Assembly: GCA_963457665.1 (NCBI GenBank)
Contig: OY735219.1
Location: 43,780,714 to 43,844,713, forward strand
DNA: 64,000 nucleotides
Direction of reading: 5' to 3'
From: Thysanoteuthis rhombus
Lineage: Eukaryota > Mollusca > Cephalopoda > Oegopsida > Thysanoteuthidae
In this document: one piece after another, positions 10,801-61,800 of the stretch
How the letters are laid out: every line of letters begins with the position of its first letter
How positions within the stretch are numbered: position 1 is the stretch's first letter
Made by a program: the position numbers and the translations under genes
The notes under the pieces: generated by a model
Told to the model about the DNA's origin: nothing
Seen by the model: the letters and a program-made list of their open reading frames with translations, nothing else
Database searches by the model: none

Positions 10801-11369
10801 GAATTGAATGGTTTATAATTTACATAAATTATATAATTTCTTTAATTTGTTTTAGTTAACCAGCTAAACAGGGAGATGAAAATATTTCTGTGCACTGATT
10901 TCCAATAAAATTTCCAAAATAAATGAAAAATTAATTTTTTCATAACATTTGCACAATTTATAAATATTCCTCATTCCCATCCTCATTGTCTGTTTCAAGT
11001 GCAATAAAATCCATAGTTTCTTCTCATGCAGAAAGTAACATTTCACAAGTGATCCTTAAAATGAACAAAATTAAACTTGTGAAAGATAATCTCAGAATAT
11101 ATGCAGCAAATCAGCAACTAAAGAGACAGGATCTATTTTTAACGTCATCTACAATTGATTAATACCAAAAGTCGCTAGGTGCAATACGGCCATTTTCATA
11201 ACCACACTAAAGTTAATTCCATAAAAGATGGCCACTATCATTGCTTATAACATCCAACCATGATTCAAAGACAAAAATGTAGAAGGGATGCTTTTCAAAC
11301 TGAAATGTAATACAATGTAATTCAATAAATAGTGAAACTTGATGCAAACCAAAACTGAGGAGTACTTAC
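7851..11369. other. DPP8/9 intron 1 (coding), remainder
   Basis: AT-rich intron. The phrase 'caacttttacataagg' at about 8788 recurs at about 15436, so at least one dispersed repeat passes through. No coding exon or RNA gene was recognised. Open frames of 60-86 codons at 8315-8527, 9462-9734, 10212-10442 and 10864-11046 are not protein-like. Confidence 0.6.
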
Positions 11370-11858
11370 TGTAATATTATCTGTACACACATACATACTA
11401 TTGTGAGCTGGGAAAACAAATTTTCCTTCCTTCTCCACGAAGTCAAAATAGGTAATTCCAAATACGCCAAGCCGTTTGCGCTCCCGTAGCAATTGTTCTT
11501 GTTTGGACATATGGCCAGATAAGGGCATCATTTGGAATGAATGCAGCAACTGCTTCCAAGTCAAATAAGGTGTTGAGTCTGTGAATTCATTAGGAACATC
11601 CACATACAGAAATGTGTTCTCCCGACTCTTGGCAGGAACACCAAGGAAATACAAGCGAGTCAGGGGGCCAGATTCTGTGTGGATTTTACGAAAGACAAAC
11701 TGAGATGGGACACTGCTGGCAAGACTGGTGATAATTTTGCGGGTGTCTCTGACTGCTTTGCGCAGCTCAGACCAGGATTTCTTTCCAGGTTTGGTCAGTT
11801 CAGGAAGTGGTGAACTAAACACCAACTGAAAAGGATCTGGCAAAAGCTCTGAGGCCAT
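11370..11858 (-). CDS. DPP8/9: dipeptidyl peptidase 8/9, first coding exon (residues 1-163)
   Basis: DPP8/9 is a cytosolic S9B prolyl-type serine peptidase that removes N-terminal Xaa-Pro/Ala dipeptides; in mammals it also restrains NLRP1 and CARD8. This exon carries the start codon in a strong context (CACCATGG) and runs 163 full codons to a GTAAGT donor, in phase 0. Diagnostic stretches are KSWSELRKAVRDTRKI, LTRLYFLGVPAKSRENTFLY, LTWKQLLHSFQ and LLRERKRLGVFGITYFDF. The last is nearly the human DPP9 'LLRERKRLGVFGITSYDF'. There is no signal peptide or membrane anchor, as expected for DPP8/9 and unlike DPP4/FAP. The frame stays open a little past the donor (to 11322), but the family match stops exactly at the splice site. 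Confidence 0.97.
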
Positions 11859-11908
11859 GGTGTAGCCAATTCACTCAAGATGTGGACCACAGCCAACACC
11901 AGCCAAGC
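11859..11908 (-). other. DPP8/9: DPP8/9 5' UTR part of the start-codon exon
   Basis: On the minus strand a pyrimidine-rich acceptor 'TTCTCTTTTTCAG' ends at 11909. It is followed by about 50 nt of leader up to the ATG at 11856-11858. At least one non-coding first exon must therefore lie upstream; the best candidate is at about 15.6-15.85 kb. Confidence 0.7.
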
Positions 11909-20290: not shown

Positions 20291-20489
20291 TGGTTAGATG
20301 CCATGTTGTAATTTAAAATCACTTTGTCTGTCTGTTAATTACAAGAAGGAAAGCAGCATTTTAGTGTATTTGAGAGAGATCATCAACACACACCAATTCA
20401 TGATAAGTTGGTCAAAAGTTGACTGGCCTTTTCTTCTTTTGTCTCTGTCAACAAATTTGAAAAGAAGTATACATTTGTTTATTCATTCA

Positions 20490-35111: not shown

Positions 35112-35154
35112 ATGGCACGACACAGAAATGTGCGAACGATGAAATATGAAGATG
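35112..35154 (+). CDS. HBS1L: HBS1L coding exon 1 (residues 1-14)
   Basis: The ATG is followed by MARHRNVRTMKYED and a GTATGT donor, leaving one base (phase 1). The first eight residues are identical to human HBS1L (MARHRNVR), which fixes both the gene identity and the start. HBS1L is the eRF3/EF-Tu-like GTPase that, with Pelota/Dom34, rescues stalled ribosomes in no-go and non-stop decay. All five short exons of this gene in the window are in phase 1 at both inner junctions, so alternative 3' exons can be swapped without frame change. Confidence 0.95.
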
Positions 35155-43546: not shown

Positions 43547-43624
43547 AATTCTTTGATGAGGATGATGTTGAAGATTGTTATGGACAATCATTTGATGATA
43601 AATATTGTATCTCACCTGGAACTG
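43547..43624 (+). CDS. HBS1L: HBS1L coding exon 2 (residues 15-40)
   Basis: A 78-nt exon with acceptor TTTTCAG and donor GTAGGT. With the carried-over G it reads EFFDEDDVEDCYGQSFDDKY followed by CISPGT. This parallels human HBS1L '[25 protein letters not shown]'. The acidic YGQS-DD-YCISP block is the most conserved part of the HBS1L N-terminus and may contact the small ribosomal subunit. Phase 1 out. Confidence 0.96.
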
Positions 43625-43923: not shown

Positions 43924-44088
43924 CTGCTCAGTTCACATTTTCTCGAGGATCTAACTTTGACCTTGGTTCTTATATAAGTGGAGATTCTTCTGCGGTTATT
44001 GCCCCCCAAATGCCAGAAATCATCACACCAAAGTCCCAAGCAGCTAAAGTCACACAAAACATACAAAAATACAGTGACTTGGATGAAG
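43924..44088 (+). CDS. HBS1L: HBS1L coding exon 3 (residues 41-95)
   Basis: A 165-nt exon, acceptor CCCTCAG, donor GTGAGT, phase 1 both sides. It reads AAQFTFSRGSNFDLGSYISG and continues to KYSDLDEA. The opening AAQFxxSR matches human 'AAQFIYSRRDK'. The middle is a low-conservation Ser/Pro/Ile linker, and the end leads into the three-helix HBS1 N-terminal domain completed by exon 4. Confidence 0.93.
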
Positions 44089-45349: not shown

Positions 45350-45484
45350 CTCGCCTGAATTCATGCCTGGATCAAGTTCGTGAAGTTATTGCAGATTTGC
45401 ATCCCCAAGAAGTGCTGGTAGATTGCATTAAAAAGCACAACTTCAATTGTGAAGCTGTATTGAATGAATTGCTATCATCTCCAG
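45350..45484 (+). CDS. HBS1L: HBS1L coding exon 4, HBS1 N-terminal domain (residues 96-140)
   Basis: A 135-nt phase-1 exon, acceptor TTACCAG, donor GTAAAT. It reads ARLNSCLDQVREVIADLHPQ followed by EVLVDCIKKHNFNCEAVLNE. It aligns with human '[42 protein letters not shown]'. This is the HBS1_N three-helix domain (roughly residues 89-138), a UBA-like bundle, which in HBS1 binds near the mRNA entry of the 40S subunit. Confidence 0.96.
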
Positions 45485-47171: not shown

Positions 47172-47219
47172 ATGCTCCCAAACCTCAGAGACAACCAAGA
47201 CAAGGACGTAGAGTACAAG
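47172..47219 (+). CDS. HBS1L: HBS1L coding exon 5 (residues 141-156)
   Basis: A 48-nt exon with acceptor TTTGCAG and donor GTGAAT, phase 1 both sides. It reads DAPKPQRQPRQGRRVQ, a short basic Pro/Gln/Arg linker. It is not conserved in sequence with vertebrates, but it has correct splice sites and phase, and it sits between the HBS1_N exon and the large terminal exon. The isoform fork (Ski7-like or GTPase form) probably lies after this exon. Confidence 0.75.
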
Positions 47220-48235
47220 GTGAATGCCTTTATTTTTCTTTGTCATAATCAAGTGTAAATCTTAAAGTGTTAGAGCAAATACTGGCTCCAGGAAACTGGG
47301 TTTGGAATGTAAATATTCTGATTTTAAGTGTCATGGAGAATTTTCTGGCAGAACAAATTTTGAATGAGTTGTTTGCTTTTATAAAAGCCAAGGACAGAAA
47401 ATTGTTCAAACTGTTTATTGTATTATATATTATGCTGTTGCAATAGAAACAATATTTCTAATATTTACTCGAATGAAACTATAGGATTTTTTTATTTAAT
47501 CTTTTAGTTATTGAAGTATAATCATTATGTCTTAAGATCAATCTACAGCAGAAGATTTTGTATACTCTTGTTGAAGATATTGATTATAGATGATACTAAT
47601 ATAGACATTTGCTTTGTGTTTTCTATTTTGAGGAAAGTTATCCGTCTAAAATAATCAGACTATGAAATCTCGTGTGGCTTTTTTGTTGAAAAAATATTGT
47701 CAAACTCTTGATGAGTTCTGATAATTTTCGTATGTAGCAACAATGACAGATGACAATGACGAGACCAAATGCCAGTGATGTCATGCACAAATAACTGTGA
47801 TGTACATGAAAACGCAGATAACAAATCCACTCCCCCTTCTATAGCCCAACTCAGGTCGACTTGTTTTGCTAAAGTTCGCTAATTCCATTTACAGGAACTA
47901 CTAATAAAAGATTTGAAATGGGACTCATGGTTTTTGAATAATAGTGTATGAAGAAATGGATTCTGTTTTTTTTTACCTTTTAAATTCTAATGTAACAAGG
48001 AATTCGACTCTTTCATGGCCAAACTTGTTTTTATTGAAATTGAACTCCATTGATTGATAGTTGTTATTTAGTGATTATTTAAACCTGGTTGAATATGCCA
48101 AATGAAACCTTCTCAGACAGCAGAGTGATGTTTTATCAAAATTTAAAATTCCAGTTTGAAAAATGAAGACATTCACTCAATATATAGTGACTAAAGTCCT
48201 CATAAGTGGATACTTGTTTTCACTCAATGGTGATT

Positions 48236-48360
48236 GTGATGTACCAGAAAATCAATCCGGTCAGATATCCCATTCTGGATTTACAAAAATGAATGTTTGT
48301 CTTTTTTTCTTGTAAATCCAGGACCAGGTATCTGACTGGATTATTATTCCAGTACATCAC
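48236..48360. mobile_element. 125-bp MITE-like palindrome with ~51 bp terminal inverted repeats
   Basis: The left arm 48236-48286 starts 'gtgatgtaccagaaaatcaa' and ends 'tctggatttacaa'. The right arm 48310-48360 is its complement with about eight mismatches. The centre is only 23 nt. A compact element with arms nearly filling its length is typical of MITEs. Outside the arms I see no unambiguous target duplication. Confidence 0.75.
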
Positions 48361-50284
48361 TGATGATTATGTCAGCGTTCATTCACTTAAGTGATAACTG
48401 CTACTACAATATTTACTCAAACAGATTGTTGATACTTTTTTAAATGAAAAATGATAGTATAGATTTGTTTTGTAATGCCTCTGCATGACAAGATGTTTTT
48501 ATTTGATGAGTGGCTACTAGTAATGATCTGTGGCTTGTTTGCATCCGCCTCATTATATCTGAAAGATTTTCCACAAAATATAATTTGTTTCTATTGCCAA
48601 ATAAATTTCCTTATTTTGTGTGACGAGTTATTTAATTGGTATTTTTCAAAAATGTTTCAATCTTTTTTCTGGTACTGTTATAGTGTCTGTGCATGCACAC
48701 CCACTTGATATTTTGAGTTATAGAGATTTTTAAAAATAAAGCTATGTTGGCTTTTTTTCTTAGCAATTATAGCCAAACCAAGAATTGAAATAAAAAAAAA
48801 TCTGTCCATTTTGATGGTTCAGGTAAAGTTAGAATGGCTTCAACTACTTATATTCATTATGGTGATGAGTGTATAATGTATGCAATTGATGATGTGCAAT
48901 AATTTCAACACCAAATCTTCAGATTTTCATAAAACATGACATAGTCACTAAAAATGCCAAAATGTGAATGCACAGGTCTACACTTGAAACAGTTGCACCA
49001 TGGTTTCCAGAAATTATTACAAATATATATGAAGAAAAATATTCTAAATGTTTGCTACTAAACATTAAACTTTGATATGAAAATACTTGAAAATGAAATA
49101 AATTTGAAATGAGGCAGATGCTGCTGGTTTTATCTGAAAATGTACAATTGGCCATATTTTCTATAGATTTGGTTTCATCTTGTAGTTTGTGCTTTTACTC
49201 TCTTGGACAAATATTTCTGCAGGCTTGTTGATGGGTATTGGACATAGAATGCACCACCAATGGTAAAGTCTTAGTTTTTTTGCTTGCCATGTTTTAATAG
49301 AAGGGACATATTTATATCAGAATTGAAATTTTGGAGGAAAGGAAAAATGTTGAACAATTTTTTTGTCTGTTTCATTGAAGGATTTGATGTGTAAGAAATT
49401 TTTTCAGGAATTATATATTTTAGTTTTAAAAGTGAGAGCAATTGAGCCTATATATTTCCATTGATATTGTCTTCTTTTAAGATTACTTGTTATCTTGACT
49501 TTTAACCACAATGTACAAATTTATACTTTCCCTGCCAATATTGGAAGCCTTATTAAATCAGATGGTGTTTTTTTTGTTTGTTTTTTTCCCCAAAAATATC
49601 GTTTTTAAATAAATTGGTTAGGTTTTCAAAATTTCATTCTATGCTAAGTTGTATTATTATTTTAATAAATGTCTTGTTAATATAAAGACTTCATATTGAT
49701 TATTTTAAAGTTCACAAAATTATAATGGTTATATTTATGTTTTTCTTTATATCTCAATTGAAATAATCGTCCACCTTTTGTATTTTTCAATATCACATTA
49801 ATTTGAAGGATTATATTTTTTTTTTTAAGTATTCTAAAAAAACAGGTTGAAAAGCTATATCAGGTATAGAATATGGCTCTAAAAGCTTTTCCTTTCCAAA
49901 TTATCCCATGGTATGTAAGTAAATTTCAGGATGAAATACAGGAAAGAGGGAATTATTTAATGAGTGTCAAAATTGTTTTAGTGATTGGATTACTCAGCTA
50001 TGACTTAGTTGCCTACATTTTTTGTGCTGAGAAAATGTTATTTTAAAATAATATTTCATTGTAAATAAATAGTAGCATGTTCACATAGTTTTCTCTTTTG
50101 GTATTCTAATTGTATAGAGATATTTTTGTTTTTTCAATATTCACTGTATTTATGTTTTGGTGATGTAAATATTAGATTTTTGTGCTTCTAGATTGAGAGG
50201 AATTCATGTCTTCTTATGAAAAGTTACTTCAACAATTTACCTTTTAAGTTTTATCATACCTGTAATTTTAGGTGCAAAATATTT

Positions 50285-50343
50285 CAGTATATTTCACAAT
50301 ATCTCCGAAAGTTCTCAATGAATTTCTATGAAATTTTGTAAAA
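50285..50343 (+). repeat. fragment of dispersed family A
   Basis: 'cagtatatttcacaatatct' then 'ccgaaagttctcaatgaatt' then 'tctatgaaattttgt' carries the same core as the copies at 20.5, 20.9 and 14.6-15.4 kb. Confidence 0.55.
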
Positions 50344-50407
50344 GAGGCTATTGGCTACAGAAGTGATTTAATTATGAGGCTATTGGCTACAGAAGTGATT
50401 TAATTAT
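50344..50407. repeat. perfect 32-bp tandem duplication
   Basis: The unit starting 'gaggctattggctacagaag' (50344-50375) is repeated without a mismatch at 50376-50407, which indicates a recent event. It directly follows the family A fragment. Confidence 0.95.
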
Positions 50408-50435
50408 ATATATAGCAGTTATTTGGCCTTTGCAT

Positions 50436-50500
50436 TATCAGTGGCTGTTTAGTTCAATGGTGGCAGGTTTGATTCCTACAGCAGCCCCATTTATTTTTTT
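50436..50500 (+). mobile_element. tRNA-like SINE fragment with A- and B-box
   Basis: 'agtggctgtttagttcaatgg' resembles a tRNA A box/D arm. 'caggtttgattcctac' carries a B-box-like GGTTTGATTCC at 50466-50476, followed by an A/T-rich tail. The boxes are only about 24 nt apart, so the anticodon arm is missing. The preceding phrase 'agcagttatttggccttt' recurs at about 50708, showing that the region is repetitive. Confidence 0.4.
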
Positions 50501-50726
50501 AAAATTGTTTATTCTATTTACATTGTCTAAATTGAATGATATATTGACCATATAATGACGGTATATCATTTCAAATAAATTTCTGTATAATATAACGCAA
50601 TTTGTAATTAATTCTGTTGGACTAAATATGTCCATTTCTCAAATACATAACCGTCATGTTGAAAGAGATGAATAGACTGAAAAAATGTGATGAGAATTTG
50701 GGTTGAAAGCAGTTATTTGGCCTTTC

Positions 50727-50729
<3 letters not shown>

Positions 50730-50758
<29 letters not shown>

Positions 50759-50760
50759 TT
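50730..50760. repeat. TA/TG microsatellite
   Basis: '(at)n' passing into '(gt)n', at the end of the SINE-like neighbourhood. Confidence 0.85.
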
Positions 50761-53700
50761 TGGTTATTGTGAATTACTTTTGATTTACAGTTCTGAATGT
50801 GAAAAGCTAAACTTTAGTAATAAATACAGACAATATATCTAATTCAAGGATATATATAATAGTTTTTATATCAGTTCAGTTCTATTGAACAGATTTAAAA
50901 ACCTAGAAAAATTTACATAGTGTTCTTTTAGCCAGATTATTCTGAAAACGGTTTCAGGAAAAAATTGTATTACACTATGGAGCATACTCATTGAATTGAT
51001 ATAAAAAAAACTTATGTATTTTTCTAAAATTTTCCTTTTCTAGTGTAATCATGCAACTAAATATAAGCTATGAGTCTTTCTTCTGTTGTAATCACTGATA
51101 AAATATAAAAGCAATCATTAGGAAAATCAGATTATTCAGAAGCAAGAAAAATTGGCCTAATACATACATTAATACTTGCATACACAAATTAACACAACCA
51201 GTGATGAGACTGACAAAAATTAGTGTAATTAATCAAGGTAGCAAATTGGTAGCTCAGAGCCTCTACCAAGAGTGTAGGGAAAGAAAGTGAGGTGAGAGGC
51301 ATGAAGCAGTGTCGTATCTGCCAGCTACTGGTTATTTTGTGCATTAATGGACAAGATTGTCACTCAGGGTTGCCAGCTATATTCGATTTTGAGCATTCTG
51401 TATGTCATGAAAATTTTAATCAATCAGATATCCAAAATTGTTCAAAGTTTGTCCGATTTAAGACTCTACATATATCCAGATGAATATTTCCTAAACCATA
51501 ACAGCTCTGCATACAAACCATCCTTCAAAAAATTATGTTTTTATTTTATTATTTGATTATCAATTTTCTTTTTGTCACTAAGTAGTGAAATAGAAAGGTC
51601 AATACATTTGAATTACAATGTAAACTACTATCTTATTGCTAGAGCATATTTAGATGAAAATAGCCAAAATTTTCATGGAAGGTGTCGACATTGATCCGGT
51701 CTCAAAAAATCATCATTGTATCTAATTTTCATTTTAGTTTTTCAATTTTTAAAAGATATATTGTCTACATTTTCAAAAAGGGTAATTGTACGAACAGAAG
51801 TTTCAGATTATGACCGAAAAAGACTTAGATTGACCGTTGACGAATCCAGTTCAGATGCCTGAATTGTACAACACCCAACGTACAATCACTTCTTGGATTT
51901 ACAATACTGTGTAGTTATGGCGTATAATTATTTTTGCATAATTTAATCTTAGGTTGAAGTTTACAATTAGCAATTTTTTTTTAACCTCATTAAAGCACAG
52001 AATTCCAAAGGTCATACACGCATTCACACTTGAACACGACTTCTTCCCCTGATAAAAGTTACTTTTTCTAAAAAAAACAAAAAATTTTGGAAGAGGTGAT
52101 GGTTGGATTCGAGCAAAGTAATTCAAAGCACTTTGCTATGGAGGGAAAATATTTTTTGATAATCTTATACTCATGCTCACTCCAACAAATCCTAATTTTT
52201 GGAACATCCACACCCAATTTTGAAAAAACTAACCTGCCAGGACTTTTAATTATTCCTGCTATTCCTGTAGTGGACAGAATATTTGCAATGAACTGATTTT
52301 GTCTGACATTTCCCTAATCTGCAGATAAGTGGTCTGTTAATAAGAGTGCTTACCGCACAAATTTTTATTTTTTTTTTTTAAATTTTTCTTTATTATGAAA
52401 TTGTCTTCCACTTTTAAGTGTATGATGCTGCCATTGATTCATACAAAAGCTTATTAAGTAGAAAATCCTGATTTTTTTTTCCTTTCTATTTTCTTTTTTT
52501 TTTTTTTTGCTGACTTTCCCCAGAAAACAGTTTATAATTCAGCCACATAAATTTACATCTTAAAATACCATACCAAGTTGAATATATCGTTAAGATTTTG
52601 TTCTAAATGAGTGATGGATTCCAAAAACATATTTTTATACTTGATGTAAGACATTAGCAGGAACTTCCTATCCTCATCCTAACTATTTGGCCTTGTACCA
52701 GACTCAGCTAAGCTTAACAAAGAAAAGTGGCTTATTGTGGTGGCTGAGGTAGTTTTATATTTTCTACTAGCGCCAGTGATCAATGTTTAAGCCCTTGTTT
52801 TCAACTGATTATTTTCAAAGCTGGCATATCTTCACTGTTTGGAAGATTTGTATTACACCCCTCTTCCCAATTCAGTCTACGTTATTAGAAATATCTACTT
52901 GATACAAGAGAATAATTGGATTGGAAGTTTCTGTGATGTATCTTCCATCTGATTGATCACTTTTTTAGGGGCTTTCCAAACAATTTTTTAAGAAATATTT
53001 TAATCCTTTGTTTTTTCTTTTGATTAAGTATTGTTAATGGTTTCATCAAAGTTATTCTTATTGTGGAATCATTTTATTGATATTCGATAGATTTTTATTG
53101 TTGTTGATAGTTTCAAAACTCTATCCAAAGTTCCTTTTAACACCAGCATAAATTCTCCAGGCACTTCTCATTTCAAATGAGCTTTTTCCAGTTTGTATGT
53201 GTGTGTGTTAATGATATAACAAGAATATGGCGTGCATACTTTTTAAAAATTGTTACAAAAAATTCAAATTGTATGGAGTAAGTATGATACAGTTACTCTC
53301 AAACCACTTGATCAACTCAAATTAAACTTGGTGAGATGATAAATCTTCAACTATGATGTTACATCACTTTTTGATCCAATGATATAATATGGCTTTAAAA
53401 TTTGGCAGTTTAACATTCTGAGAAAAGAGGTAACTAAGATAAGAACTTATTACATCTCTGCCTTTACATGCACATAGTTTGGGAGCTTTTATCAGTGCAC
53501 ACAGCCAAGACTCATTTTATTTAATTATAACACTACCATTTGAAAGTGGCAGTTTTAAAAACAAGGACAATCATTAGTTTTGTATAGGTGTGTTTAGAGA
53601 AGAGGCCTCAACCATTTCTTTTTTAGTGTTAATCAGGGGGATTTTTTCATCAACTTTCAATGTTTCTTATTATATCTAAAACTTTTTTTATCATAAAATT

Positions 53701-54584
53701 TACAGTGGTTCAGAATTTTTTTTCTGTTTGAAAAAATAGAAAGCTCAAGGGCAGAGAGAAAAGAATCCACCTTTTGAGTAACGTCTCTTATTACATGTTT
53801 TGTAAACTGTAAGAAGGTGGGGCAGTATATTTCAGGTTCACTTCTTAGTACATTTTAGTTCTTCTAGTACTTTTAAGATGTTTTTAACTGAATATGATCT
53901 CAAAAATTGATCACTTGATGATATACACTAAATTCTTGATTACCCATCTGCAAAGTTTTTATCGGTTGAGAAAAGAGAATGAGTATTTGATGATTCAACT
54001 ATTTATTTGGCATTGATAAAGTTTGATCTTGATTTTCAGTCTGAAACAATTGTTTGTTTAATGGTTTCTATATTATCTATCTAGCCATTAAATTAGAAAT
54101 TCAATGTTCAGCATAACAATCATGTGCATGATTCAGGGATCAGAATTTAGAGGCAAGGATTCTTTTTCTCCACTCCAAGATTTCTGTTTTTTTTTACTTA
54201 ACAGTTTTTCATTAACTCTTTCTGGAGTGGCAAGAAATGCTCAAACTGTTGTCAACATTAAAAATAAATGATACCTAGTCATTCTCATTACGTAAATTCT
54301 CTTGTCCACAATATAACTAAGAAGAAATGCACACATTGACTGGAATAACTTTTTTTTTTCTATTTAATAGTTTTTACTCAATTAAATGAATATATGGATG
54401 ATTATGGTACCTCTGAATTTCTACTTAGTAGAAAAGTTTAATGACTCCGCCATCAAAAATGGATCACATCACAAGGACTGATTTGAAACATCACTGCTAA
54501 AGAAGTTAACATCTGTTACTTTTGCACTTACTGTATTTGGTCAAATACTAAGGCTAGTACAAAATTGTCTGTTTTAGTTTTTTA

Positions 54585-54890
54585 TAAAAAAAAAAAAATT
54601 TTAAAAAAAGCCATTATTTTATTTATTTCTTATTTAGATGAAGTATTGCAATCCATTTTTATTCATTTTTTTTTTTTTTACAACTATTTACCCTCATCCT
54701 AACCTTAACAACTTGTTATTTTTAAATCACAATTAAACTTGGTTTTAGTAAAAAAAAAAGCCATTATTTAATTATTCATTTATTGTAAACCATGAACTGC
54801 CGTGTTAGTTAAATTGTTGTTTTTTTTTTGTTTTTTTTTATTCATTTTTTTTTTTTAAACATCTAAAGATAGGGATGAGGGTGAATAGTA
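54585..54890. repeat. A/T-homopolymer repeat cluster with direct and inverted copies
   Basis: 'aaaaaaagccattattt' occurs at about 54604 and 54756. 'acaactatttaccctcatcc' (about 54681) is inverted at about 54867 ('ggatgagggtgaatagtagt'). Long poly-T runs lie between. This looks like two nested or opposite copies of one A/T-tailed repeat. Confidence 0.55.
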
Positions 54891-56841
54891 GTCTAAAATG
54901 ATAAAAATAGTGTACAGTTCTTTATTTAGATTAGGAAAAAAATTATGAAATAATTCTTTTTCTTTCTTTCTCTATTAAAATCAAAATGTATGCTTGAACT
55001 ATTTGTTGAATAATAATTTAAAAAAACAATAGGATGAATAGTATTCAAAAATCAATCCAAATGTTTTAATACTTCATCAGTAGAGGAATAGAATGGTCGT
55101 TTTTTTTACTGAAACTAAAACAGACACTGCCATGCCGGACTTGATACTCAAATACATCCAAGATAAGTGTCAGCTTCTCTAGCAGTGAACAGTCAAGATA
55201 TGATTCATTTTTTATGTCGGAGTCGTTAAACTTTGCCTTGTAGTTTTTACTTTGTTGAATAAACATTTGAGCAGTGCCTCTGAATTTGAGAGTTAAAGAA
55301 AATATCTTTTGTAGTCTTTTTTTTTTCTTTTTCTTTATATGTTTTCTTTCAAAAGACTTAGTTTTTTTGAATAAGCCAACTTTGGTCTCGCCCACACTCA
55401 AGCATTGCATGTTTAGCATCAGTTTCTGTATGGAATAATATTGTTTTTCAATGATCAGTAGTTGAATACTTGACTATATCCTTCCTTATGCAATGAATTT
55501 TACCTATTTGGGGGGGGGTCTATCCTGGTTCACCTCTTGCCTTTGCACATACTGATTTCTGTGATGAGATTGATAGCATTATTGAATTTCAATCAATTTC
55601 TGTAAAGTATAAACAAAGAGACAGATCTAATTTTCTATATCGTGAATTTAGCTATTGTCATCTATTTTTCATTGTTCTAGAATAACCATTTCATATGGTA
55701 ATTGTTCACATACTAAAATATATTTAATTTGTGATTAAATGATTGTGAATATTTAAGTTGTTTATTTTAAAGATCATAAGGGTTTTGAAAAGTCTTTAAA
55801 TAATGCTCATGCACACTTTCTCACCGTCTGCTTTCTATACCACACTTGTTTCTTTATGTGAAATTTTCAATGGGTAGCATGCTAATTTTGAGGTTATGGT
55901 TCCGATTTGCTCTTGTATTCATGATTGTCATATTTTGAAATTTTTCTTTCTGGACAAACATGTTCTCAGTTTTTTTAATGGTATTGAATACTTCAAATAT
56001 TATTCAATTGGACTTGGGATTTGCACAATTTTTTCATAACAGTTGAATATTTGAGATTAATTTTATGCCAAATGCTTCAAACTCTAGTTTTAATCTTTGA
56101 AAATTGTGAGAAGATTCAGTTTCTTAGATTAATTTTGCTTTGTGGGAAGTAAGATCATATCCATCTTCTGGTTTAGAGTATTGGTTACATTGTTTTTATA
56201 ATGACCTTTTGCCTTGATTTGATTTTTATGTCAAGAAATCATTGCAAGTTTGGTCAAATAGTATCAACTGATATATATTTATAATATATTACTATTACTG
56301 TTAGTAAATAATACATCATATAAAATCATTGTAGTCATTTCACTACTTTCATATCACAGTCAGTCTGTGTATGTATATAATCTGTATATTGAATTGAATA
56401 GTATGAATATTTACACTGTAAAAATTTCATTTTATGCTTACATATAGAAGCAATAGCAGATCTCAACTCGTCAGAGCTTATTAATTTACAAAAATCTCCT
56501 CAAAGGGGGACTAATCTTTTTGAATAAAAGGAATGAATAAGATTTCTTGATTCCTTTTTCACAGTATCATACTGTCTTGATTCTTTATGAAAATACAATC
56601 ACTCTTTTCCCCTGTTGATTATGTGAGGTTATTGTGTCAGTGCATCGTGTATATGATCAACTTTGATTAATGATATGCTAACAAAGAGCCTCTGTTTACT
56701 TCCTTTCTTTCATATTGTGTTCATCTCTTCCACAACTTCTGCTGTTTGGAAATATGCTACCAACACTCCGGTTTGCTGCATCCATCTTTCTGGCTCCTTC
56801 ATATTAATTTTTGGCTTTCGTAAGGTAAGAATTCCCTTTAG

Positions 56842-58826
56842 ATTTATATGCTCAATCTGATACTATTTCATCTGAATATGATGATGTTGATGATGATGAT
56901 TATGATTATGGAAGAGATATTTCCAAACGTAGCTTAGTTATGGCTGTGCCACATTATAAACTCTGTCAAGAATACAACAGTGTTGGGGAAGAGGAATGCT
57001 CCTCCTACAGCAGTCTCAACTCTGGGGACACTGAGGACCAAGTGTCTTTTCTTTCAGAACAAAATAGGAATTCACCTGGCCATAACAAAGTACAAATAAT
57101 GCATCACTTGAAATCTGGCAGCACATCCAGTGAGAATGTTGCGCCATCCACGGAAAGTAGTGATGAGAATGATGATTTAGAAGTTGATGGTGGACCTCAA
57201 TCTAATTATGATGGAAGAGTTGAACAATTGACATGCTTTCCTGATACTACTGACAGCAGCAGTGTGATTTGTAGACCCAAGGAACATTTTGAATCGCCAA
57301 ATGTTACACCCAATAATTGTGAGAGCTCGTTGATGAATAATAGTTGTAATGATATGAGATTAAATTCCTCGAAGGCCATTCCTTCATCTGCTACCAAATT
57401 TCTAACACCTAAATCTGATAAGCAGGAACTTTTGAAACTTTTTGCAATGGCTAATATAAATAAACAAAAAATGGAAGAATCTGCAAGTTTGGCCTCAGCC
57501 AATAATGAAGACCTCTCTGCCTTTCCTAAGCCATCCCTTTGTGAAGAGATTTCTCGAAGTCCACTGCAAAATCAAATAGCCAAAGAAAATTCATGTAAAT
57601 CGTCTTTAGCAGATATTTTTCAACAAAGACACAATGGCCCCAATAATAATGACCGTTCATATATCATTGAGAAGTGTGAAGAATGTTCTGCTAATCAGGG
57701 CAATTCCAAAAAGAATTCCAACAGAATGAGTTTGGCTGATCTTGCTAAACAGCGTTTTGGGTCAGATCTCCAAGAACAGGTCCCTGCAGTTTGTGGGTCT
57801 TTGTCTCAGAAGACAAGCTCTACCTGCCCAAATAAACAGAATAATTTGCCTTCAGTTCAGCCTTCCTTAACAAATTCTAGTAGCAAGCCTTTAATTGATC
57901 TCACAAATCATTGTTTTGGGAAAGGTTTAAATTTTTCTAATCAAAGTGGCAAAACATTGATACTTGACAATTTTCAGTCTTTGAATTCTGTTAATGAAAC
58001 CAGTAAAGAAGTGAGCGTAGAGAAATTGATTCCTACTGATAAGGCAACTTTGTCTCTAGGAGATCTCATGAAACAAAGATCATGTTCTGTTATATCTCCT
58101 TTTCAAAGTAATAAGGATTTCTCATTAACAGATCCTTATGAATTGAGACCTGAAGATTCTCCCCAGGTAATTGGTAAGAAAACACTTGATGTGGAGCCAG
58201 GTAAAAAGATTATTGATGCTGATATAAAAGAAAGTGAACATTCCTCTTCTAAAGCCTATTCTGATAATTCGAAAAAGAACTCTCCAACAGAATATTCCAA
58301 CAATGAAGACAATGATTTTACAATTTTCCATAACAGTCCCAAGAAAGATTGCCAACCTATGTCATTAGGAGAACTTTTTAGTCAAGTGAATAACAGTAAG
58401 ATTGACTCAAAGTGTGACAATACAAGCAAGTTGGAAGATTTATGGCAAGGACCATCAAGTAAACGCAGAACTGAGCAGCAACTGAATAAAGATGTGGAAA
58501 CAATTGAGAAAAAGTTCCTACTCCCATCATTTCTCAATGAAACTAGTAATGAATATCAGAATTTGAAAATAACTTATGAAGCATCAGCATCCTTGTTTGG
58601 CAGAGTGGTTTCTTACCATCCCAAAAGTGTAGAATGTACTGAAAAGATGCCAAGAAAAAAACGATATCACAAATTCTCTTACAGAACACAGACATGTGGC
58701 ATGAATTCCAATGAGGAAACTAAACTGGCCCAAATTGTTCCATTTGACTTTTCTACTCCATCACCTGATGATATTGTTAAAAAACACCAAAGCCAAGCCT
58801 TTGGTCATAAAAACACTATTGCTTGA
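56842..58826 (+). CDS. HBS1L: HBS1L Ski7-like terminal exon (residues 157-817 of the short isoform)
   Basis: This large exon is open for 661 codons in the phase-1 frame set by exons 1-5 and ends in its own TGA (58824-58826). Joining gives an 817-residue protein with the HBS1 N-terminal domain but no GTPase domain. It starts with an acidic stretch (YDDVDDDDYDYG, residues 169-180), then a long Ser/Asn-rich disordered region. Five short motifs follow: SSLADIFQQR (410-419), MSLADLAKQRFG (452-463), PLIDLTNHCFG (506-516), LSLGDLMKQR (560-569) and MSLGELFSQ (663-671). Near the end come SLFGRVVS (739-746) and PFDFSTPSPDDIV (790-802). Vertebrate HBS1L makes the same kind of isoform from a big alternative exon. 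That product (HBS1LV3) acts as Ski7, tethering the cytoplasmic exosome to the SKI complex. The stop-ended exon strongly supports the same design here. The acceptor at 56840-56841 (TTCCCTTTAG) is preferred; one 12 nt upstream (56828-56829) keeps the same frame. Confidence 0.88.
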
Positions 58827-61800
58827 TTGAGTAAAAGGGGCCATTACTCTTATGTTTGAGGAACGTAATTTTTTTGAAGTTTTCAAATTTTCACTTTTTT
58901 TTTACCACATTTGTACATAATATGATCACTTCATTTCAAATTGCCACAAATAAGAAATTAGTTCCAAGCATTACACATTCATTATGGATCTTACTAATAA
59001 GGAAATTCGTTGAAAAATGAATCTAGTGATGCAGATGACTAGCATTCAATGTGATATATTTCCGTTCTTTACAATGTTTTAATGTCATTTTTATGGTCTA
59101 CATTTTCAAAATCTCTTCTCAGTTCCAGCCAGTTTGTAAAATCTGTCTCTGTCTCTCTCACACTCATAAGAACAACTCTGGTATTTTTTACACTTACAAA
59201 TTTGCTTGATTATTACAGTTTAAATTTTTAGGTAAGTTATTTTAAGCTTGGAGCATTGTGCTATATTTTAGCTTACTGAAGAACTTCAGGTAATTGGAAA
59301 TTTTATAAGAATTTTATTCATCTTATTCAAAAAGTCTATTAGCATTAAAGCATACATTTTATTGTCAAATAACTACAGTTGAACACTTGCCTACTATTAA
59401 CCATACTTATATAGGATATCTTTTATGTTTATGATAAAAATTATGCTTGATTCATTTAGAACTATCATTTTTATTTAATGCTTATAAAATAATCCACTTT
59501 GAATTTACTTGTCAAAATTTTAGGAATAGATTTTGCTCGAGACCAAATCCAATGATTTCATCTCAGTTTATGTGAAAGTTAGTCTCAGTAGTAATTAACT
59601 ATCACTCATTCACTGTCTTAACTGTGAAATTTCTTAAGCAAATATACATTTATTCAGATAATACAAAATACTTCTTGTACCTAAGATTGTATTTTTTTTT
59701 CTCTTAATATAAGTTATATGGATCATAAGATAATAATTTTCATTAATTCAGTTTCTATGATGGCAGCAAAAATGGTATTGTTTTTGTCTCATTTCTCTCT
59801 CAGTTCATTCTTTTGAATCATAAACTTTACTATTCATTATTCAATTCACCATTACTGATATAAGCTATATTTTCTGTGCTTCTTATGTCTGACTATTTAC
59901 TGTATGAGGCAGCGTTCAAAACCAAATATTTTTTACCACGTTTACCCTCCAAAAATTGTAGGTAAATTGTGAAACCCTCCAATTAACTTTCCTAAGATAT
60001 GGTCTAGGAATATGTTGAAACTATTCAATATTTGTGATGTTTCAAATTATTAAAACCTGGAAGGATTTTTTCATATTTTCATGTATTTTCATGAATATAT
60101 TTTTGTTGAATATATGTAAATAAGTTATTTAAAACTTTAATTTCTTGTCATTTTGTAATTTTAATGACTTTGGTAATTTCCAATATAGTAAGATCAAACT
60201 TTAAATGCAAAAATTGAATAATCTAAGGCATCGTCTTGAAACTGAAAAAGTTCAATTTTAATGAATTAATTTTAAATCTTCATTTAGTGGAGATTTGGAG
60301 CAAAAATCAAGAACATTTTTAATAATTCTTTATGTATGTACTAATCTATGATTTAATTCTCAATATGTGATCATTCTTCAACCTAATAATCGCTCTAAAT
60401 GCTTCAATGAATTGATTTTTAAAGAAGAAAGGTTGTGGGTAAGATGTTTGATAGGATACATCTCTATCATGTTCAAAAATAAACATTTTTTTTTTACTTT
60501 GCTATCAGAATTAACATTCTCGGCAATTTGAACTTTAAATATTAACCATTTTATAGTCAACTGAGATCCTTTTTAAAATGTAAATCAAACTTGCTAATTT
60601 TGCAAATATTCTTAAAGCTGTGCTACCTTTGAGCTAGCCACTTACCTCAGTTCTGTTTGTAAGACAAGCATTAAACAAAAGGAGAGTATTGTTTACAAGT
60701 AATGAAATGTTCTAATATATTGAATGAAAATATTTAAATTGTATTTTACAGAATTTTCCCCAATTAAAGACTTTACAAATAAGACTAAACAAAGTGATGC
60801 TTGACAGCTATTTTGTATCAATTTCACATAAAAAAATTTATTAGGTTTTTACGTATGAAATGTTGTTGTTTTTTGGGGGGTAATACTATGGTAAAGGATG
60901 ATATTAACAATAAAAATGTTGAACATTTGATCTAATTATGACCTATTTGAAGCAATCACTATTTTCTGACAATGATGATGTGCCATCTCTATAAGATTCT
61001 TTAGGTTTAGGGGTCACAAATCCAGTAAAAGAATGAAATATGGCTTACAGATATGAAGTTCAAAATGCTTGAAAAGATGATTATCTCTCTAGGAGAAATC
61101 TGAGGTGAATATAGAGGATACTGCAAGATTCCATATCCAAATTTTCTGAGCTTAGACCCAGACAGCTGAGAGTCAGGTATGGTCATGGAGCATTTCATTC
61201 AGTTCATGTCTGACTCATTTTCCCAACTTTAACTTTTTTTATTGCCTTGAGAAAATTAGCCAAACTTCTTTTGTAGACACCATTGTTGTAATAGGCTCAA
61301 AAACCTCTAATGATAATGAATTATATCTCTTTTCACATTTCTATTGATAATGAATTGTATCTCTATTCGCATTGAATCTGTAGAAAATATGATTCCATTA
61401 GAAAATCTTTTAATTTTTAGCATTATTATATTCGCTGCGAAAAAAAAAACAGACATTTCATTTGTAACAACCTAATATTCAGATTTCTTCTTCAAGTAAA
61501 TTTTTTTACATTGAAGTTAAAAAAATACTGGTTTGGTACTTTCTAAGAAGTACTAGATAAAATAAGATTCTAGGGTTCAGTGAAATGTTTACCTGAATTA
61601 TCCACAACAAAAAAAAGATTTTATGATTTTTAAAAAATGGTCTTCGCTAGTGATCCAGTAATCATCTAAGAACTGGAAGATTTATTTAACACTTGAAATT
61701 GATTTGGATGACTGTTTTACTCTTAATGGTAGACCACAATGTGTGGCCATATTGTCTGAAATTCTCAGATTAGATATTGTCAATTAGTTATTCAGACTAG

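Follow-up and report, generated by a model that had tools for sequence, protein, structure and literature searches.

The window, i.e. the whole stretch of 64,000 nucleotides that was analysed, very probably encodes a SKI7-type isoform of HBS1L, composed of five N-terminal coding exons and a single large terminal exon at 56842-58826 (Table 1). We base this identification on an exon chain that is in phase 1, on a joined frame of 817 residues, on the likeness of the N-terminal part to HBS1_N and Hbs1l, on a SKI7-like C-terminus and on a counterpart of the human SKI3-binding helix. Such an isoform is not new in kind, as SKI7-like proteins have already been published for cnidarians, molluscs, brachiopods, echinoderms and others (Brunkard & Baker 2018, PMC6143672). 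In vertebrates, the corresponding exon converts HBS1L, a ribosome-rescue gene, into SKI7, which links the RNA-degrading exosome to its helicase. The repeated motifs found in the middle of the terminal exon are a modest new lead.

Table 1. Features of the HBS1L/SKI7 locus (window coordinates; residues numbered in the joined frame)
Feature	Position	Strand	Basis or remark
HBS1L coding exon 1 (MARHRNVRTMKYED), donor atg|gtatgt	35112..35154	+	GT/AG borders, joined frame
HBS1L coding exon 2, acidic stretch YGQS..YCISPGT	43547..43624	+	joined frame; tblastn 2.8e-4
HBS1L coding exon 3	43924..44088	+	joined frame
HBS1L coding exon 4, most of HBS1_N / UBA-like domain	45350..45484	+	PF08938; tblastn 1.6e-6
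HBS1L coding exon 5, donor aag|gtgaat	47172..47219	+	joined frame
SKI7-specific terminal exon, 1,985 bases, 661 residues (157-817), TGA 58824-58826	56842..58826	+	frame, homology; possible alternative start 56830
Motif copy 1, SLADIF (residue 411)	57603..57620	+	pattern count
Motif copy 2, SLADLA (residue 453)	57729..57746	+	pattern count
Motif copy 3, PLIDLT (residue 506); as PLIDLTNHC, similar to human PLSQLANRC	57888..57905	+	pattern, comparison
Motif copy 4, SLGDLM (residue 561)	58053..58070	+	pattern count
Motif copy 5, SLGELF (residue 664), putative counterpart of the human SKI3-binding helix	58362..58379	+	alignment; PMC11540850
SKI7-like motif candidate ASASLFGRVV (737-746)	58581..58610	+	partial likeness to metazoan consensus
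KRYHKFSYRTQ (763-773), putative counterpart of human exosome-binding loop 582-593	58659..58691	+	alignment
Patch 4-like motif PFDFSTPSPDDIVKKHQ (790-806), predicted exosome-binding by homology	58740..58790	+	phmmer, alignment

The HBS1L N-terminal exons

Exons 1 to 5 are bordered by GT/AG, and each of the five junctions is in phase 1, the one from 47219 to 56842 included. At this last junction, the AAG|gtgaat border of exon 5 joined to 56842 yields the split codon G|AT, after which the frame remains open to the TGA at 58824-58826, for 817 residues in total; the claim of the preliminary description that exons 1-5 join a stop-ended exon of 2 kb in phase is thus confirmed. The 156-residue product of these five exons matches the Pfam family HBS1_N (PF08938, E 1.3e-8, score 35.5 for a cut-off of 26.4) and aligns, starting at residue 1, with mammalian Hbs1l in 5lzw (E 3.8e-20). 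A tblastn search of the window with the human HBS1L sequence recovered exon 1 (E 0.94), exon 2 (2.8e-4) and exon 4 (1.6e-6, with 43% identity over 42 residues) and gave no separate match for exons 3 and 5. The identity at exon 4 would be in keeping with a non-vertebrate animal, and the preliminary term 'invertebrate' is plausible. In the mouse domain, named UBAh, the ubiquitin contacts are Val87, Leu88, Leu112 and Leu116 (PMC13232801), and the alignment with 1ufz, with numbering moved by hand, places Val, Ile, Leu and Leu at these sites in the window. Asp107 of mouse UBAh is described as invariant in the same source; by the same hand transfer, the UBA-like domain of the window (45350-45484) has Asn at this position.

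By analogy with vertebrates, exon 5 would be the last exon common to the SKI7-type and HBS1 transcripts, and we infer that the two are produced by alternative splicing at this locus. The preliminary description had called this fork visible in the sequence; the SKI7 branch is seen, but for the HBS1 branch no credible match to a GTPase exon was obtained on either strand of the 64 kb window with the tblastn query described above. This absence means little, because the window extends only 5.2 kb beyond the SKI7 exon and the introns of the gene reach 8.4 and 9.6 kb (the latter between exon 5 and the SKI7 exon), so that GTPase exons may lie further downstream. A gene encoding only SKI7, whose GTPase half was lost or moved to another locus and which undergoes no alternative splicing here, would also agree with a search that found exons 1, 2 and 4, missed exons 3 and 5 and returned no GTPase exon, and comparable splits occur in grasses and S. 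cerevisiae (PMC6143672). We nevertheless judge it quite unlikely, given the short sequence available downstream relative to the introns and given that in human the alternative exon 5 comes before the rest of the exons (PMC6143672).

Coding status and start of the terminal exon

The open frame at 56829-58826 comprises 665 codons, whereas among 100 first-order Markov copies of the window no ORF in any of the six frames exceeded 181 codons (mean of maxima 129). The codon positions of the exon are unlike in composition, with 42% T at position 3 and 41% A at position 2. That the exon is coding is settled by the homology of both halves of the product, the N-terminal part and the exon itself, to HBS1L/SKI7, and the case rests on this homology rather than on the splice signal. 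Indeed, the acceptor at 56842 is weak, as it ranks 312th of the 606 AGs in 47220-58826 with a simple splice score, and 12 AGs of fitting phase are present in 56829-57399, including 56842 and 56830, the latter 12 bases upstream. The exact exon start is therefore uncertain, and the phase match alone is little proof since any acceptor has a one-in-three chance of fitting the phase. The first part of the exon (56842-56937) is GAT-rich DNA that would encode an acidic run (EYDDVDDDDYDYGRD), whose coding status is less certain than that of the rest because an in-phase acceptor at 56938 would omit it.

The weak acceptor and the 9.6 kb gap after exon 5 could suggest that the frame is driven by a promoter of its own, as a separate gene or retrocopy without any link to HBS1L splicing. 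This is highly improbable. The frame is homologous to that portion of human SKI7 which splicing attaches to the N-terminus of HBS1L; it follows exons 1-5 immediately on the same strand, in phase with them, and its first in-frame ATG lies at residue 190, inside the frame. No Pfam family was matched at E up to 10 by the 660 translated residues of the exon, in agreement with the earlier proposal of an 817-residue product devoid of the GTPase domain, and no relative of the exon was confirmed in the viral contigs searched. ATTAAA/AATAAA signals are located 3' of the stop at 59344, 60049 and 60478 (the last being the first AATAAA) and are candidate ends of the SKI7 transcript.

A candidate exon of 260 nt is located at 56565-56824 and ends 17 bases upstream of the SKI7 exon. 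Its acceptor, after ttttcacag, scores 5.5, like that of exon 5 (5.4), and its donor AAG|GTAAGA ranks 15th of the 3,024 GTs of the + strand, both by the same simple score. Joined to this candidate, exon 5 would be followed by a TGA after 8 codons; considering this stop and the 17-base spacing, the candidate, if used, would act as a poison exon and exclude the SKI7 exon. With the thresholds placed at its own scores, three splice pairs are found on the + strand of the window and 0 on the - strand. Elsewhere in the window, a DPP8/DPP9-type dipeptidyl peptidase exon (11325-11870, - strand; PF19520, 1.9e-20; best PDB match DPP9, 7crw_D, 5.4e-31) is transcribed away from HBS1L, and the long ORFs at 20298 and 55069, two of the three other long ORFs submitted, gave no Pfam match.

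Similarity of the exon C-terminus to human SKI7

When the exon product was compared by phmmer with 177,635 distinct PDB sequences (E up to 10), the single match was an HBS1L isoform chain, 9g8m_E (E 4.9e-5, residues 763-812 covered). With the last 114 residues only, this chain was retrieved at 4.6e-6 and the sole other match was Cas2 (E 1.3). We assume that chain 9g8m_E is the construct covering residues 369-632 of human SKI7 in PMC11540850. Human numbering was obtained by adding 364 to the chain index of 9g8m_E and 367 to that of 9g8r_E. These offsets follow from where the two constructs begin and end (369-632 and 372-546) and from how long their chains are (274 and 179), and with either one Leu falls at 454 and Ile at 458, in agreement with PMC11540850.

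Residues 765-810 align without gaps to human SKI7 584-629 with a score of 102 (shuffle mean 29.7; equalled by 0 of 2,000 shuffles), so that the similarity to HBS1LV3/SKI7 on which the preliminary description depends is present. The matched human region contains most of loop 582-593, which lies between RRP43 and RRP45, the stretch 602-616, which binds CSL4, and the helix from 617, which touches SKI2 (PMC11540850). In the Patch 4-like motif, PFDFSTPSPDDIVKKHQ keeps all the fixed letters of PFDFxxxSPDDIVKxNQ save one (H for N). Upstream, the candidate SKI7-like motif is less regular: relative to the motif RxxxFxxxL and its metazoan consensus A+PShFAahL (PMC6143672), ASASLFGRVV keeps A, S, the hydrophobic residue and F, with S and V in place of R and L (Ser738-Phe742-Val746). 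It does not fit the strict RxxxFxxxL pattern, and phmmer left this region unaligned to the human protein.

Repeated SLxDL-type motifs in the middle of the exon

The pattern [SP]-L-x-[DE]-[LI] occurs 5 times in the 661 exon residues for 0.16 expected (0 of 20,000 composition shuffles), and a broader pattern, which takes in the human copies as well, again occurs 5 times for 0.09 expected (0 of 50,000 shuffles), these figures being guides only because both patterns were framed after the sequences were known. The narrower S-L-x-[DE]-L-hydrophobic, taken from the human helix, has 3 copies for 0.019 expected (0 of 100,000 shuffles). In the compared pieces of human SKI7 (147 residues), 4 similar copies are present, SLTELF 375, TLSDLC 393, PLSQLA 414 and SLSELI 453, for 0.05 expected (0 of 50,000 shuffles), a count biased upward because some of these pieces surfaced through their resemblance to the query. 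KLEDLW (residue 686) was considered as a sixth copy and rejected for its low score (1.6) with the five-copy matrix. The likeness between copies is at the protein level, since the serine codons vary (TCT, AGT, TCT, TCA) and none of the 5 direct-repeat DNA families detected overlaps a copy; DNA-level repeats were accordingly rejected as the origin of the motifs.

The fifth copy probably corresponds to the helix by which human SKI7 binds SKI3. This human helix (451-464), which includes Leu454 and Ile458, lies in a cleft that SKI3 forms between TPRs 29 and 30, and the L454D/I458D mutant served to validate it (PMC11540850). Residues 652-677 align to human 440-469 with a score of 49 (shuffle mean 30.2; reached by 2 of 2,000 shuffles), and the flanks align as well, with FHN-SPKKD..SLGEL..NNSKI in the window and FHKASPTRD..SLSEL..DNSQI in human; Leu665 and Phe669 occupy the places of human Leu454 and Ile458.

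The likeness of the window copies to human SKI7 is apparent only in context. In an 11-residue comparison, the best pairs are human 375 with window 411 (score 24), 414 with 506 (25), 393 with 561 (22) and 453 with 664 (18), and window 664 is slightly closer to human 375 (20) than to human 453. The matrix of the window copies gives 3.8 on the human SKI3 helix, where the median of the best scores in shuffled human letters is 3.6, and 10.6, 8.4 and 10.6 on human copies 375, 393 and 414 (95% point 8.6; 99.9% point 17.7). The human piece 371-385 aligns modestly to the window (40 of 2,000 shuffles), at copy 5 and not at copy 1. The common order of the human and window copies is only suggestive, being equalled by 8 of 120 orders for five copies and by 48 of 720 for six.

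The copies other than the fifth could be sites for another partner or merely amphipathic low-complexity stretches, with no role in SKI docking, a reading to which we give slightly less than an even chance. It agrees with the outcome of a PDB search (E up to 10) with a 16-column profile built from the five window copies, in which human SKI7 was absent and the seven weak matches (E 0.084-3.3) included GTSE1, with its LIDL repeats, and designed helical repeats. It also agrees with the alignment of human piece 390-432, which holds two copies, at shuffle level only (417 of 2,000), and with the assignment of human SKI3 binding mainly to the Leu454/Ile458 helix; according to PMC11540850, a single major helix binds SKI3 and a second, predicted one contributes little. 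On the other side stand a motif excess far above composition, the similar copies in the human SKI7 pieces, the way in which the fifth copy aligns, flanks included, with the SKI3 helix and the protein-level nature of the likeness. A large help from the other human copies is disfavoured because fragment 372-546 contains all four human copies, yet one helix within it is the main determinant, validated by L454D/I458D (PMC11540850). The other copies may thus have a different ligand, a weak affinity or no binding activity.

The motif excess, the fifth copy and the human copies suggest an old multi-copy docking array, although several tests of such an array gave weak or negative results, and the preliminary idea of lineage-specific motifs in the disordered part is not upheld, as the motifs look shared with human SKI7 instead. 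No description of a repeated motif in SKI7 was found in a literature search that covered titles, abstract openings and parts of SKI7 papers.

Proposed mechanism and significance

From the vertebrate arrangement, we expect a transcript with the five N-terminal exons that ends in the 56842-58826 exon rather than continuing into GTPase exons. The common N-terminus would let the protein engage either the 40S subunit or ubiquitin present on stalled ribosomes, and the last ~80 residues are predicted by homology to bind both the exosome ring and its CSL4 cap. Between them, the disordered middle would present the five SLxDL-type motifs, the last one as the presumed counterpart of the human SKI3-docking helix, and the protein would thereby tether SKI2-SKI3-SKI8 to the exosome, consistent with the requirement for HBS1L3 to bridge SKI and exosome (PMC8860381). 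With much less assurance than for the preceding steps, the other motif copies might add weaker docking contacts and make the linker a multivalent tether.

A more general hypothesis is that the long insert in animal SKI7 forms an ancient array of docking helices of the SKI3 type (5 here and at least 4 in human), acting as a multivalent tether or as a sliding ruler between helicase and exosome, and that splicing of the SKI7 exon may also be set by competition with the candidate poison exon at 56565-56824. We regard this combined hypothesis as speculative and rather unlikely. The motif array nevertheless offers a testable role for the middle of human SKI7, described as an insert of unknown function (PMC6143672), since one of its copies is a demonstrated SKI3 contact in human. 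Moreover, a stop-ended SKI7 exon following an HBS1L N-terminus, i.e. the vertebrate-type arrangement, is seen here in the genomic sequence of an animal quite diverged from mammals in this gene, which bears on the evolution of the metazoan gene structure, a question left open in the account given by PMC6143672.

Comparison with known SKI7 systems

The predicted product resembles human HBS1LV3 (HBS1L3, SKI7) in having the HBS1L N-terminus followed by one stop-ended alternative exon without GTPase domain, a Patch 4-like motif, a counterpart of the SKI3 helix and, preceding this helix, similar SLxEL-type copies. It differs in the number of exons, as four precede the human alternative exon 5 (PMC6143672) for five coding exons here, in the spacing of the copies (18-39 residues in the human pieces compared, 42-103 here) and in the candidate SKI7-like motif, which lacks R and L of RxxxFxxxL. 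The exon-specific part has 661 residues here and ~488 in human (632 in total, 144 shared; PMC11540850), so that its earlier description as much longer than the vertebrate exon was overstated (~1.35 times). Zebrafish Ski7 also differs, with 576 residues in total (PMC7924785). Unlike the locus described here, S. cerevisiae Ski7 is encoded by a separate gene and keeps a C-terminal GTPase-like domain; it binds Ski3 via other elements (PMC11540850) and was absent from the PDB matches of the exon product (phmmer, E up to 10). S. cerevisiae Ski7 nevertheless has a Patch 4 motif and bridges exosome and SKI (PMC6143672, PMC7924785), the function predicted for the isoform encoded here.
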